Positions 57,032 through 62,330 of a DNA stretch of 64,000 bases are shown one piece after another; position 1 is the first letter of the stretch; every line of letters starts with the position of its first letter. Source of the stretch: an uncultured Carboxylicivirga sp. (GTDB lineage: Bacteria; Bacteroidota; Bacteroidia; Bacteroidales; Marinilabiliaceae); contig NZ_OY764327.1 in the NCBI RefSeq assembly GCF_963668385.1, positions 3,630,501-3,694,500 of the forward strand, in the 5' to 3' direction. The notes beneath the pieces are model-generated. The model made no database searches, had not been told where the DNA came from, and was given only the letters and a program-made list of their open reading frames with translations. The position numbers and the translations under genes are program-made.

Positions 57032-57363
57032 AAATATTTGTGTTATTCAGAATAGAAAGTAAAAGTTTGAAATGAAACAGAAAGGCAGGTACAGCCTTGA
57101 TTTTCATGGCTTACCAAATCAGTGCAGGCTGGTTTTTTGCAGCAAGGTGATAATCATCAATACCATAAAAAATAAATACTTGTGAGCTAAATGGTGTCGG
57201 GTTGGGCTAAAGGGCCAATTTGACAAATAATGCGGACAAAACTGAATGGTTATATTATTATTGATATGATTTTTTTGTAACGAATTGTTTGAAAATTCAA
57301 TAGTAGGTAGTGTGGTTATGTAATTATTTACTATGTTTAGTATCGAAAACAAAACACCCTGTT
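57032..57363. other. Gene-free region before GH5
   Basis: No gene, and no convincing promoter pair. A CAGCCT/AGGCTG inverted pair with a long loop ends in GGTTTTTTG near 57130 and might be a weak terminator for the HEAT-like gene. Confidence 0.3.
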
Positions 57364-58590
57364 ATGAAAATTACTACCTTAATTGTACTTATTTATCTAT
57401 CTACTATTTATGTGGCCGCACAAACGCCAGTTGAAAAAAATGGTCAACTATCGGTAAGTGGCAATCGAATTGTTAATAAAAATGGAGTACCTGTTTCGCT
57501 GGCAGGTAACAGTCTTTTCTGGAGCAATACCTACTGGGGGGGAGAAAAATATTACAATGCCGATGTGGTTGATTGGCTAGCATCTGATTGGAATTGTAGC
57601 ATTGTGCGGGCAGCCATGGGAGTGGATGATGACTGGGGGTATTTGCACGATGCCACTAATAAGCAAAAGGTAACTACTGTGGTTGATGCTGCTATTGACG
57701 CAGGAATATATGTGATTATTGACTGGCACTCGCATCATGCCGAAGATTACCAGCAACAGGCTGAGACTTTTTTTGAAGAGATGGCGCAGCTTTATGGCGC
57801 TTATCCAAATATTATTTACGAGATATATAATGAGCCACTTCAGGGGGTATCGTGGTCGAGTACCATTAAACCTTATGCCGAAGCTGTAATTGGTGCCATT
57901 AGAAGCTATGATACCAATAATCTGATTGTAGTGGGCACACCCAGTTGGTCGCAAGAGGTAGATGTTGCCTCTAATGATCCTATTACATCGTACGGTAATA
58001 TTGCCTATGCTTTGCATTTTTATGCGGCTACCCATCATCAGGAAATAAGAGATAAAGCCTTAACAGCTCTCAATAATGGAATTGCCTTAATGGTTACCGA
58101 GTGGGGAACGGTACAATCCAGTGGCGATGGTGCGGTGGATGAAGCCGAGGTTGACACATGGATGAATTTCTTGTATGAGCATAAATTGAGTCATTGTAAC
58201 TGGGCAATAAACGATAAAGCCGAAGGTGCTTCTGCTCTTAAGCAAGGAGCATCAGTTGCAGGTAATTGGACCGACGATAATTTAACTACATCGGGTTTGC
58301 TTGTAAAAGATATTGTTACCAATTGGAATAGTCGTTTTAGCACCTCTGTTAGTCAACCTGATGTTTCAACTTTTAAAATGTATCCTAATCCGGCAAAGAA
58401 TTGGATAACTATAGAAGCCAGTGGAATCAATCAGATTGAACTTATAGATATGGCTGGAAATAAGGTGAAACAGCTGAGTGGAGCTGGAAATCAAACTCAG
58501 ATCGATTTGCATACGTTTGCCAAAGGTATTTACCTGGTTAAAGTAAGTTGTGTAAATCAGGTTGTGCTTAAAAAGTTGGTAGTGCAGTAG
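57364..58590 (+). CDS. Secreted GH5 endoglucanase-type enzyme with T9SS sorting domain
   Basis: 408 residues from the ATG at 57364 (the longer frame begins upstream with 18 non-signal residues). Signal peptide MKITTLIVLIYLSTIYVAAQ. GH5 barrel: VSLAGNSLFWSN, YVIIDWHSHHAEDY, acid/base Glu157 in EIYNEPLQG, ALHFYAATHH, nucleophile Glu246 in VTEWGTV, and HCNWAINDKAEGAS. It is closest to the bacterial GH5_2 endoglucanases by these motifs. Residues ~336-408 are a Por/T9SS C-terminal sorting domain (MYPNPAKNWITIE, IDLHTFAKGIYLVKV, KKLVVQ), so it is exported through T9SS to the surface or medium, unlike the lipoprotein enzymes elsewhere in the window. A repeat array begins at the base after its stop. 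Confidence 0.93.
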   Translation: MKITTLIVLIYLSTIYVAAQTPVEKNGQLSVSGNRIVNKNGVPVSLAGNSLFWSNTYWGGEKYYNADVVDWLASDWNCSIVRAAMGVDDDWGYLHDATNKQKVTTVVDAAIDAGIYVIIDWHSHHAEDYQQQAETFFEEMAQLYGAYPNIIYEIYNEPLQGVSWSSTIKPYAEAVIGAIRSYDTNNLIVVGTPSWSQEVDVASNDPITSYGNIAYALHFYAATHHQEIRDKALTALNNGIALMVTEWGTVQSSGDGAVDEAEVDTWMNFLYEHKLSHCNWAINDKAEGASALKQGASVAGNWTDDNLTTSGLLVKDIVTNWNSRFSTSVSQPDVSTFKMYPNPAKNWITIEASGINQIELIDMAGNKVKQLSGAGNQTQIDLHTFAKGIYLVKVSCVNQVVLKKLVVQ

Positions 58591-60264
58591 GGATTAGGAA
58601 TTAGAGTTTAGGTGTTAGAAGCTAGAAGCTGGATCTTGTTGAAGTCTGTATCGATGCCTAAGTAGCTATGTTTTGATTATCACCCCTCCGGAACAGACAG
58701 AAAAGCTATAGGCTAGCAGCTATTAGCTCTTAGGTTCTAGGTTTTAGGGATTAGGAATTAGAAGTTAGAAGATGGATCCCGCTGAAAGCCGTATTGCATT
58801 AGTGGCATTTAAGATAACTCCGGAGGAGTTAAATATTAATAGCCCGGTGCGTAGCACGGGGAATGTGTACCAAAAGAATACCAACCCCAGAGAGGGTTGA
58901 ATAATAATAGGGATTAGGAATTAGAGTTTAGGTGTTAGAAGTTTGAAGCTGGATCTTGTTGAAGGCCGTATTGCATTAGTGGCATTTAGATAACTCCGGA
59001 GGAGTTAAATATTAATAGCCCGGTGCGTAGCACGGGGAATGTGTACCGAAAGTATACCAACCCCAGAGAGGGTTGAATAATAATAATAGGAATTAGGATC
59101 TAGGGTTTAGGTGTGAAGCTAGAAGCTGGATCTTGTTGAATTCTGTATTGATCAGTAAGTAACTTTGTCTTTACTATCATTCCACTGGAACAGACAAAAA
59201 AGCTATAGACCAATAGCTATTAGCTCTTAGGATCTAGGTTTTAGGGATTAGGTTTTAGGGATTAGGGTTTAGGCTTAAGAAGTCCGATATCGCCGAAGGC
59301 CGTATTGCGTTAGTGGCATTTAAGATAACTCCGGAGGAGTTAAATATTAATAGCCCGGTGCGTAGCCCGGGGATTGTGTACCAAAAGAATACCAATTCCA
59401 GAGAGGTTGAATAATAATAGGGATTAGGATCAAGAGTTTAGGTGTTAGAAGCTAGAAGCTGGATCCCGTTGAATTCTGTATTGATGCCTAAGTAGCTATG
59501 TTTTGATTATCACCCCTCCGGAACAGACAGAAAAGCTATAGGCCGGGAGCTATTGGCTCTTAGGATCTAGGGTTTAGGTGTTAGAAGCTAGAAGCTGGAT
59601 CTTGTTGAATTCTGTATTGATCAGTAAGTAACTTTGTCTTTACTATCATTCTACTGGAACAGACAGAAAAGCTATAGGCCGGGAGCTATTGGCTCTTAGG
59701 TTCTAGGTGTTAGGCTTAAGAAGTCCGATCCCGCCGAAGATTGTATTACATTAGTGGCATTTTGATAACTCCGGAGGAGTTAAATATTAATAGCCCCGTG
59801 CGTAGCACGGGGAATGATTAACAAAGAAATACCAACCCCGGAGAGGGTTGAATAATAATAGGTTTTAGGGATTAGAGTTTAGGTGTTAGAAGCTAGAAGC
59901 TGGATCTTGTTGAAGTCTGTATTGATCAGTAAGTAACTTTGTCTTTACTATCATTCCACTGGAACAGATAAAAAAGCTATAGACCAATAGCTATTAGCTC
60001 TTAGGATCTAGGTTTTAGGGATTAGGGTTTAGGCTTAAGAAGTCCGATATCGCCGAAGGCCGTATTGCGTTAGTGGCATTTAAGATAACTCCGGAGGAGT
60101 TAAATATTAATAGCCCGGTGCGTAGCCCGGGGATTGTGTACCAAAAGAATACCAACCCCGGAGAGGGTTGAATAATAATAATAGGAATTAGGATCTAGGG
60201 TTTAGGTGTGAAGCTAGAAGCTGGATCTTGTTAAAGTCTGTATTGATCAGTAAGAAGCTATGTT
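58591..60264. repeat. Composite interspersed repeat array 1 (90-bp, ~120-bp and 7-bp units)
   Basis: No gene in ~1.7 kb. Three unit types alternate. (a) A 90-bp module (TCTGTATTGATC ... CTCTTAGG) at 58645-58734, 59142-59231, 59475-59564, 59611-59700 and 59916-60005, each exactly 90 bp, plus a truncated copy from 60237. (b) A ~120-bp module with three hairpins at 58791-58910, 58968-59089, 59302-59420, 59743-59861 and 60062-60184. (c) Linkers of variable numbers of 7-bp units such as GGATTAG, TTTTAGG, AATTAGA. The order is a-b-b-a-b-a-a-b-a-b-a'. The array starts directly after the GH5 stop and ends 26 bp before the 3' end of the exporter gene. No transposase, reverse transcriptase or Cas gene is near. 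Confidence 0.9.
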
Positions 60265-60289: not shown

Positions 60290-60790
60290 TCAATGCCCCC
60301 TCTTAACGATGTGGGCAACAATTTCACGTGCTGATTCATGACGAGTTAACAGCATGGGTAACGATACACCCACCGATATGGATAACAATACAAAAATGGC
60401 TTTTAAACCATTACTGGTAACATTGTGAAGCACCTCAAGGTATTGATCAGTTTGTAGTTCTTCGGTTAGTTGTATTAACCCAAGTATGGTGCGATATGCA
60501 AAGGCTCCGGGTATCATTGATATGATTGACGGAATAGCAAAAACATACATGGGCGATAATTTATTTTGAGCCGCTGCAATACTTAAGAAACCAACTGTTA
60601 TAGCTGCCACAAAAGTGGCCGATATAACTTGTAACCCCAGTTGCATCGATAGGTATTTGGTAAGACCACAAATGGCCCCCATACCCAGTATTACTATTAA
60701 AGTACGTTTTGGAACATTAAATAAAATGGCAAAACCAATGGAGGCTAATGCCGGGTATAGCATATGTTCGAAAATAGATAGTGCTGTCAT
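60290..60790 (-). CDS. ThrE/YjjB-type small exporter subunit
   Basis: 166 residues with four to five membrane segments (PALASIGFAILFNVP, LIVILGMGAICGLTKYLSM, ISATFVAAITVGFLSIAAA, VFAIPSIISMIPGAFAYR, IFVLLSISVGVSLPMLLT). The PxxxxMIPGAFAYR motif is typical of the C-terminal half of the threonine/serine exporter family, here a separate protein as in YjjB. It starts 4 bp after the stop of its partner and likely forms one transporter with it; in related systems the substrate is a small organic or amino acid (threonine, or succinate for YjjPB), which is inference here. Its 3' end abuts repeat array 1. Confidence 0.85.
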   Translation of the reverse strand: MTALSIFEHMLYPALASIGFAILFNVPKRTLIVILGMGAICGLTKYLSMQLGLQVISATFVAAITVGFLSIAAAQNKLSPMYVFAIPSIISMIPGAFAYRTILGLIQLTEELQTDQYLEVLHNVTSNGLKAIFVLLSISVGVSLPMLLTRHESAREIVAHIVKRGH

Positions 60791-61709: not shown

Positions 61710-62330
61710 CTTTAGGAATTAGAGTTTAGGAATTAGAAGTTAGAAGGTGGAACTTGTTCAATTCTGTATTGATCAGAAAGCAGCTATGTTTTGATTATCA
61801 TCCCTGCTGGAACAGACAGAAAAGCTATAGGCTAGCAGCTAGCAGCTATTAGCTCTTAGGATTAGGAATTAGAGTTTAGGAATTAGAAGTTAGAAGGTGG
61901 AACTTGTTGAATTCTGTATTGATCACTAAGCAGCTATGTTTTGATTATCATCCCTCCGAAACAGACAGAAAAGCTATAGGCTAGCAGCTATTAGCTCTTA
62001 GGGTCTAGGTTTCAGAGATTAGGGATTAGAGTTTAGGTGTTAGAATCTAGAAGCTGGATCTTGTTAAAGTCTGTATTGATCAGAAAGTAGCTATGTTTTT
62101 ACAATCATCCCTGCTGGAACAGACAGAAAAGCTATAAGCCGGCAGCTATTAGCTCTTAGGATTAGGAAATAGAGTTTAGGAATTAGAAGTTAGAAGGTGG
62201 AACTTGTTGAATTCTGTATTGATCACTAAGCAGCTATGTTTTGATTATCACCCCTCCGAAACAGATAGAAAAGCTATAGGCTAGCAGCTATTAGCTCTTA
62301 GGATCTAGGTTTTAGGGATTAGGCTTAAAA
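61710..62330. repeat. Composite repeat array 2 (90-bp modules and 7-bp units only)
   Basis: Four more copies of the 90-bp module of array 1: 61763-61860 (98 bp, with an extra CTAGCAGC), 61913-62002, 62070-62160 (91 bp) and 62213-62302, in the same orientation as array 1, joined by 7-bp-unit linkers (GGAATTAGAGTTTAGG and similar). The three-hairpin ~120-bp module is absent. Copies 2 and 4 here are nearly identical to each other, including their left linkers. It lies between the exporter operon and the 62362-63069 gene. No gene is contained. Confidence 0.9.

Follow-up and report, generated by a model that had tools for sequence, protein, structure and literature searches.

A tandem array of three-hairpin cassettes in a Carboxylicivirga genome, probably a REP/REPIN-like cluster with a candidate subclass 1.2 TnpA partner

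The intergenic array downstream of a GH5 cellulase gene (array 1) probably consists of a mobile DNA palindrome of the REP/REPIN-like kind, clustered in tandem, for which sequence comparison points to a TnpAY1 of subclass 1.2 as the most likely cognate enzyme. Array 1 lies in the window, the whole stretch of 64,000 nucleotides that was analysed (C1:3630501-3694500; the genome, a single contig of 6.27 Mb, is labelled G000 and referred to here as the own genome). The new point is the probable partnership of a hairpin-cassette family with subclass 1.2 TnpA, its candidate enzyme; in the open-licence literature, outside which most subscription journals lie, we found neither a published hairpin partner of this subclass nor the cassette.

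Array 1 consists of five three-hairpin cassettes (93-94 nt), five 90-bp modules of equal length and heptamer linkers, all in a single orientation (Table 1). An earlier note on this DNA had described an array of direct repeats at these coordinates, running in one orientation and containing five full 90-bp modules of strict length. This description holds: self-BLAST detected no inverted copy in the arrays, and the modules of array 1 align with each other without indels. Its account of the 90-bp copies is right for array 1, and four more modules exist in a second array (array 2). The linkers are made of heptamers as it had proposed; however, they do not start at the base after the GH5 stop, since the run opens with the stop codon itself. 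The note had also seen no mobility gene here, and indeed none of the five ORFs near the arrays is a transposase by comparison with family libraries, and the window contains no Y1_Tnp gene, all four of the genome lying elsewhere.

Table 1. Positions of the repeat units and neighbouring genes in the window
Feature	Position	Strand	Remark
GH5 cellulase with T9SS sorting tail	57310..58590	+	upstream neighbour of array 1
Heptamer run TAGNNNN	58588..58638	+	opens with the TAG of the GH5 stop (58588-58590)
Array 1: cassettes, 90-bp modules and heptamer linkers	58591..60264	+	between convergent GH5 and ThrE_2 genes
90-bp module copy 1, with heptamer edges	58619..58745	+	alignment A5
Three-hairpin cassette copy 1	58815..58908	+	R3 111.4 bits (copy in R3 training set)
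Copy 1 hairpins	hp1 58815-58831, hp2 ~58843-58861, hp3 58882-58899	+	
Three-hairpin cassette copy 2	58991..59084	+	R3 108.4 bits
90-bp module copy 2	59114..59240	+	alignment
Three-hairpin cassette copy 3, hp3 with 1-nt deletion (alignment)	59326..59418	+	R3 95.4 bits
90-bp module copy 3	59450..59576	+	alignment
90-bp module copy 4	59587..59712	+	alignment
Three-hairpin cassette copy 4	59766..59859	+	R3 111.5 bits
90-bp module copy 5	59890..60016	+	alignment
Three-hairpin cassette copy 5	60086..60179	+	R3 109.8 bits
Sixth 90-bp module, truncated	60200..60264	+	closes array 1; partial BLAST match 3690696-3690764
ThrE_2 half of split threonine/serine exporter	60290..60790	-	convergent neighbour of array 1
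Array 2: four 90-bp modules and heptamers	~61712..62323	+	no cassette match; beyond thrE genes

The cassette comprises three hairpins: hp1 with a 3-nt loop and an AT-rich tail like AATATTAATAR, the GC-rich hp2 with a 3-nt loop, and hp3 of the form CAACCC...GGGTTG. Folded as single-stranded DNA, a single cassette proved much more stable than its shuffles (z -3.8). A covariance model of the cassette, termed R3, gave 70 matches in the own genome at E ≤ 0.05 (150 of 5852 candidates scored), the weaker of which, at about 32-45 bits, take in shorter forms; nucleotide BLAST, in contrast, recovered only five full copies, all in the window, and nine partial ones. R3 matches at E ≤ 0.01 occur in 55 of 119 genomes, the own genome included and 12 of 13 congeners among them (with no more than 35 candidates scored in any genome). 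A BLAST search over 80 genomes was positive in nine, again including the own, and yielded five loci of other genomes (L161, L162, L166, L167 and L168), two of them in congeners, with the complete hp1-hp2-hp3 order. In an alignment of these five loci with the five window copies (A9), 10 of 21 pairs have changes on both sides, amounting to 16 cells. All five covariation measures were reached in 0 of 500 shuffles, and structures slid along the alignment gave at most 3 pairs; hp3 is without a double change and therefore says little. Thirty cassette matches, including the five copies in the window, were compared with ORFs of at least 120 aa: 29 fall outside such ORFs, compared to 630 of 1500 random positions at the same loci.

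Of the four Y1_Tnp genes in the own genome, one (C1:4863985-4864446, 154 aa, motif YIENQKVHH) encodes its sole TnpA with the subclass 1.2 motif, a protein that NCBIfam names IS200/IS605 family transposase above cut-off. The signature Y---Q--HH marks TnpAY1 subclass 1.2, proteins of ~150 aa from Bacteroidetes; in the survey that defines them, typical terminal IS200 structures are generally absent and REP-like structures are tabulated as “no” (PMC6006769). The HuH motif reads NHIH in the own protein and DHIH, DHLH, NHIH, DHTH and the like in others, compared with DH[IV]H in that survey (PMC6006769). At E ≤ 1e-15, 155 of the 295 genomes sampled from the order contain homologues of the own TnpA, and most, not all, of those checked have the subclass 1.2 motif: a regular expression for Y---Q--HH hit 25 of 30 fetched tnpA loci of the order, and the columns Y114, Q118, H121 and H122 are invariant in 10 of 10 aligned proteins. 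The own-genome gene is the likely candidate for the partner that the earlier note had expected elsewhere in the genome. Six matches to R1, a model of hp1, lie within ~330 bp of it, units of that locus being in the R1 training set. The best R3 match beside the gene scores 24.7 bits and looks like a two-hairpin form, so that for the three-hairpin copies of the window no exact partner gene is known in the own genome, a point against the main reading. The three RAYT genes of the own genome (L002, L003 and L004; NF047646) were rejected as partners: the hairpins around them are of other sequence, and R3 gave no match there at E ≤ 0.05. Each of the three has its own flanking hairpin type, namely CACGAT..ATCGTG, CTCCTCGAT..ATCGAGGAG, and CGAAGT..ACTTCG together with GGTAGT..ACTACC.

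Hairpin units of this kind also lie beside tnpA in other genomes of the order. At the 30 tnpA loci we found 71 hairpins with a tail at most 2 mismatches from ATATTTATAG, distributed over 24 loci; none overlaps the gene match, 59 lie within 300 bp of it and 67 within 600 bp. Dinucleotide shuffles gave a mean of 1.0 and a maximum of 2 such units, and positions 1-56000 of the window and locus L031 of Marinilabiliaceae bacterium A049 gave none. When the tail was not preset, the commonest 7-mers after hairpins were TTATAGA and TATAGAA, each with 25 occurrences, followed by TTTATAG and TGTTTAT with 23 each. Against the main reading, the best of 200 scrambled tails in a 10-locus subset equalled the 22 matches of the true tail (mean 3.3). 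At other genes of the 30-locus set (L094, L100 and L103), a two-hairpin form of ~76 nt is present, which scores at most 44.6 bits with R3.

The 28-nt unit of hp1 and its tail, searched as the pattern AACTCCNNNGGAGTTNAATATTNATAG with at most 3 mismatches, has 37 matches genome-wide including the window copies, compared to 0 for the reversed pattern. R1, trained on 19 rows that held the window hp1 and units from the own tnpA locus, gave 106 own-genome matches at E ≤ 10 and 57 at E ≤ 0.01. In the alignment of 19 distinct units (A8), 96.9% of cells pair and 23 are double-changed, with a covariation score reached in 0 of 500 shuffles; the tail is kept while the stems vary. The number of further pair types in A8 is within that of shuffles (208/500), a point against the main reading. 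A second model, R2, was trained on 61 hairpins adjoining tnpA genes at 17 of the 30 loci, with the window excluded. In its alignment (A2), 97.3% of cells are paired and 102 are double-changed, the score again being reached in 0 of 500 shuffles; on two of the five covariation measures, A2 does not stand out from shuffles (402/500 and 113/500), which counts against the main reading. R2 picks up all five window hp1 at 40.0 bits and the unit by the own tnpA, a member of its training set, at 40.6 bits, though it is not wholly independent: R1, with the window hp1 among its rows, had selected the hairpins on which R2 was trained. Eighty selected genomes were surveyed under strict filters, with 94 candidates scored per genome. 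R2 has matches in 21 of the 40 that carry tnpA versus 6 of the 40 without (p 0.0004), and in 20 of 39 versus 6 of 40 when the own genome is left out (p 0.0006), by a statistic that in both cases ignores phylogeny. In genomes G138, G080 and G073, there are pairs of matches, plus then minus strand, about 92 bp apart.

Several further loci were recorded alongside. The six genomes with R2 matches and no tnpA count against the main reading; among them, G081 and G065 have 15 and 9 R2 matches, respectively, and no tnpA match at E ≤ 1e-15, perhaps owing to a diverged enzyme or to loss. In the own genome, L149 (G000:C1:2637000-2643500) is another array, with six hp1 units spaced 395-442 bp apart; it also has a CTGCCGCA...TGCGGCAG hairpin and hairpins tailed like GTCTGTAAAT, possibly a second REP family. 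At L122 (G000:C1:5684000-5693000), a long locus, hairpin units are numerous and blocks of several hundred bp recur.

The cassette itself stands beside tnpA in some genomes. Among 30 loci, out of 42 Y1 matches in ten genomes chosen for their many cassettes, a cassette of at least 40 bits lies beside the gene at five, in four genomes (G012, G305, G354 and, with two copies, G313), against ~0.5 loci expected by a rough estimate that assumes 70 cassettes per 5 Mb. The other 25 loci of these cassette-rich genomes have no cassette of at least 40 bits beside the gene, which counts against the main reading. At L229 (G012), the gene at 1411-1860 sits between cassettes at 1316-1411 and 1860-1950; at L216 and L223 (G313:C446), two tandem tnpA copies 802 bp apart alternate with inverted cassettes; the remaining two loci are L207 (G305) and L209 (G354). 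At L188 (G297), the gene also lies between two inverted cassettes, a further case, but one found via its cassette. The motif Y---Q--HH was read in L229, L216, L223, L209 and L188, whereas the gene of L207 was missed by the expression. The L229 protein is above the cut-off of the NCBIfam IS200/IS605 family transposase model, and that of L216, at 53.3 bits, is under the cut-off of 55. Around L229 and L188, the two loci compared by eye, there are no evident common outer ends.

The inverted pairs of the own genome count against the main reading in its simple form and suggest a different mobiliser. Among the 70 R3 matches, 34 form 17 inverted pairs with a gap of 3 nt in every pair, and 11 of the 13 pairs read have inverted-repeat ends like GCGAATCAAYAGTT...AACTRTTGATTCGC with 2 mismatches allowed (GCGAATCAA-type ends). 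The same ends occur in the congener locus L176. Nine MITE-like elements (L239, L241, L242, L243, L244, L248, L250, L254 and L259) measure ~211-225 bp between GCG and CGC, and each contains two inverted three-hairpin cassettes. Flanking duplications of ~7 bp agree at 54 of 63 positions in nine tested elements (0 of 20000 permutations; three perfect, three 6/7, three 5/7), a length that was picked from the data, 5 or 6 bp fitting about equally, with the flanks of L250 and L259 nearly identical. Left out of this test were L253, whose flanks equal those of L250, and L238, which has an altered right end and no duplication seen. Target duplications are a mark of DDE transposases, and Y1 enzymes make none; the inverted-pair subfamily has thus been moved by something else, and a second, DDE-type mobiliser is likely for these 17 pairs on the evidence of their ends and flanks. 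These ends and duplications favour a rival reading, in which the cassettes are the cores of ordinary DDE-transposase MITEs bounded by terminal inverted repeats and the TnpA link is incidental or secondary. We consider this reading rather unlikely: such ends were not seen by eye at the window cassettes or at those of L162, L166, L167, L168 and L173, cassettes abut tnpA in G012 and G313, and single-hairpin units flank tnpA at those 24 loci of the 30.

The position of array 1 between convergent genes, its hairpins, and an excess of terminator-like sites on the minus strand (4 versus 1.6, sd 1.3, in shuffles) would suit a structured RNA locus downstream of GH5, such as a 3' UTR stabiliser, a bidirectional terminator or an attenuator. 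G-U pairs, as RNA would allow, occupy 10 of 209 cells in the cassette alignment A9; they are rare in the single-hairpin alignments, with 0 of 129 cells in A8 and 9 of 406 in A2, seven of those nine in the outermost pair. As G-U cells are commoner in the cassette alignment, this argument does not settle the RNA question. What weighs against such a locus is that cassettes occur in both orientations and adjoin ORFs of either strand, and that no Rfam family model matches, at gathering threshold or at E ≤ 1. An RNA function as the explanation of the array is thus quite improbable in our view.

The 90-bp module behaves differently from the cassette. Its 12 BLAST matches in the own genome all fall within the two window arrays, no pair is changed on both sides among nine modules compared, and the three modules folded as single-stranded DNA have no stable fold (z 0.2, -0.4 and 0.6 against shuffles). 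The heptamers give a lag-7 self-identity of 0.392 in array 1 and 0.462 in array 2, compared to 0.261 in a control stretch. Heptamer stretches are also common around own-genome hairpin loci: 29 loci contain 54 stretches of period 7, of which 29 lie in two loci, compared to 5, 12, 17, 10 and 3 stretches of periods 5, 6, 8, 9 and 10; positions 1-56000 of the window contain 2 of period 7. The blocks 58921-59502 and 59696-60264 are 87% alike over 588 columns, matching blocks are 77-92% alike overall, and stretches of array 1 and array 2 are up to 91.5% alike (self-BLAST). Whole blocks that repeat one another, together with the likeness of the two arrays, point to local duplication. A purely local minisatellite, born of chance sequence by slippage and unequal recombination without any element ancestry, would fit the confinement of the 90-bp module, the alikeness of the blocks and the heptamers, and it stands for the module and the linkers; for the cassette, found across genera with compensatory changes, it is contradicted, which makes it most improbable as an account of the whole. 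CRISPR was set aside, as the linkers are heptamers and repeated modules and not unique spacers.

The earlier note had treated the three repeat classes as one element family, and this finds no support, given the confinement of the 90-bp module in the own genome and its want of covariation and fold. For the hairpin module, membership of an element family is borne out by dispersed matches in 55 of 119 genomes and by compensatory changes. The copy search and the covariation analysis that it had proposed divide in the same manner: the cassette is dispersed in the own and related genomes and covaries by all measures, whereas the 90-bp module, searched in the own genome, occurs there in the two window arrays only and shows no double-changed pair. 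Its alternatives of a replicating or recombining element and a structured RNA come out in favour of the element for the cassette, the RNA side being the weaker for want of an Rfam match and, in the single-hairpin alignments, for stem changes that are almost all Watson-Crick. As for orientation relative to genes, the window copies all run in one direction, and elsewhere cassettes run in both. Its caveat, units confined to this place and multiplied there by recent duplication, agrees with the 90-bp module and the array architecture, but not with the cassette, the structure of which is conserved elsewhere. Its search for empty sites gave a partial answer. The ThrE protein has 77% identity in Marinilabiliaceae bacterium A049 (pattern-based scan with the ThrE protein), and thrE is present at E ≤ 1e-60 in 1 of 13 congeners (G300, L231), where L231 is the same region as the A049 locus L031 (6 of 6 60-mers in common). 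The thrE flanks of both contain no heptamer stretch, and L031 has no hairpin+tail unit and no array by eye. The upstream neighbour differs at L231/L031, however, so this is not a strict empty site.

We return to the REP/REPIN-like reading of array 1. The dispersed unit would be the three-hairpin cassette, often as an inverted pair, and a Y1 (HUH) single-strand transposase of subclass 1.2 would recognise the hairpins in single-stranded DNA and copy or move them. Upstream of each window hp1, only a putative decayed left hp1 was seen by eye, with no intact left half; the window would thus retain only right halves, each starting in the decayed left hp1. These right halves may have become fused to heptamer repeats, alternating with the 90-bp module as a spacer, and local duplication with slippage would have multiplied the composite. 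The structure, the dispersal, the compensatory changes and, in some genomes, the proximity to tnpA are observed; we infer both the action of TnpA on the cassettes and this route of array growth. The window array itself is a modest derivative and probably a passive by-product between convergent genes, with a weak terminator role as a possibility. In a wider scenario, subclass 1.2, described without REPs, could be the enzyme of a REPtron lineage of its own in the order. It would co-evolve with compound REPs, in which two or three hairpins with an ATRTTTATAG-like tag form a chain; secondarily, a DDE-type MITE would have captured such cassettes, and composite tandem clusters like that of the window would have grown from them. 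On this we are evenly divided.

TnpA homologues are present in about half of the order's sampled genomes, yet in its description the subclass lacks partners of the REP or IS type; with a candidate DNA substrate, the function of subclass 1.2 TnpA becomes directly testable. The substrate also touches on the question of a single origin of REP systems (RAYT, class 2) as opposed to several origins from IS200-like enzymes. Moreover, an intergenic repeat that is frequent in the order, and that plain BLAST largely misses, now has a model.

Among known systems, the TAACTGA heptamer repeats are likewise intergenic 7-bp direct repeats, present in some Bacteroidetes too, but they differ in sequence, and the window heptamers are degenerate (PMC4679880). 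BrickBuilt of Porphyromonas gingivalis is described as a minisatellite inside a MITE, a likeness of description (PMC4596501). TIR-type MITEs and TIRtrons (PMC3733652) resemble the own inverted-pair subfamily with its inverted-repeat ends and ~7 bp duplications; such ends were not seen by eye at the window cassettes. IS200/IS605 elements and their non-autonomous relatives share the transposase family name and subterminal hairpins; here, however, the hairpins alternate around the gene in a BIME-like manner, and no defined IS ends were evident by eye around L229 and L188. TnpAY1 subclass 1.2 as surveyed (PMC6006769) agrees in the Y---Q--HH motif and in size, and differs in what surrounds the gene: here hairpin units, and cassettes as well in some genomes. 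The closest likeness in kind is to REP clusters and REPtrons, with another tag and another enzyme class, while no described family was matched in Rfam. As in REP, REPIN and BIME systems and in REPtrons (RAYT = TnpA-REP, class 2 TnpAY1), the units are short intergenic hairpins with a conserved unpaired tag, frequently in inverted pairs, in clusters reiterated in tandem with flanking DNA, and concentrated beside a Y1 transposase gene. Two inverted units at a fixed spacing, as in a REPIN, are seen in the 17 own-genome pairs, whereas the window copies are not inverted. The tag is ATRTTTATAG-like and on the 3' side of the hairpin, instead of GTAG, with no canonical GT[AG]G foot, so this is not a canonical GTAG REP; moreover, each unit combines two or three hairpins, and the candidate partner is class 1-like (Y---Q--HH) rather than a RAYT.
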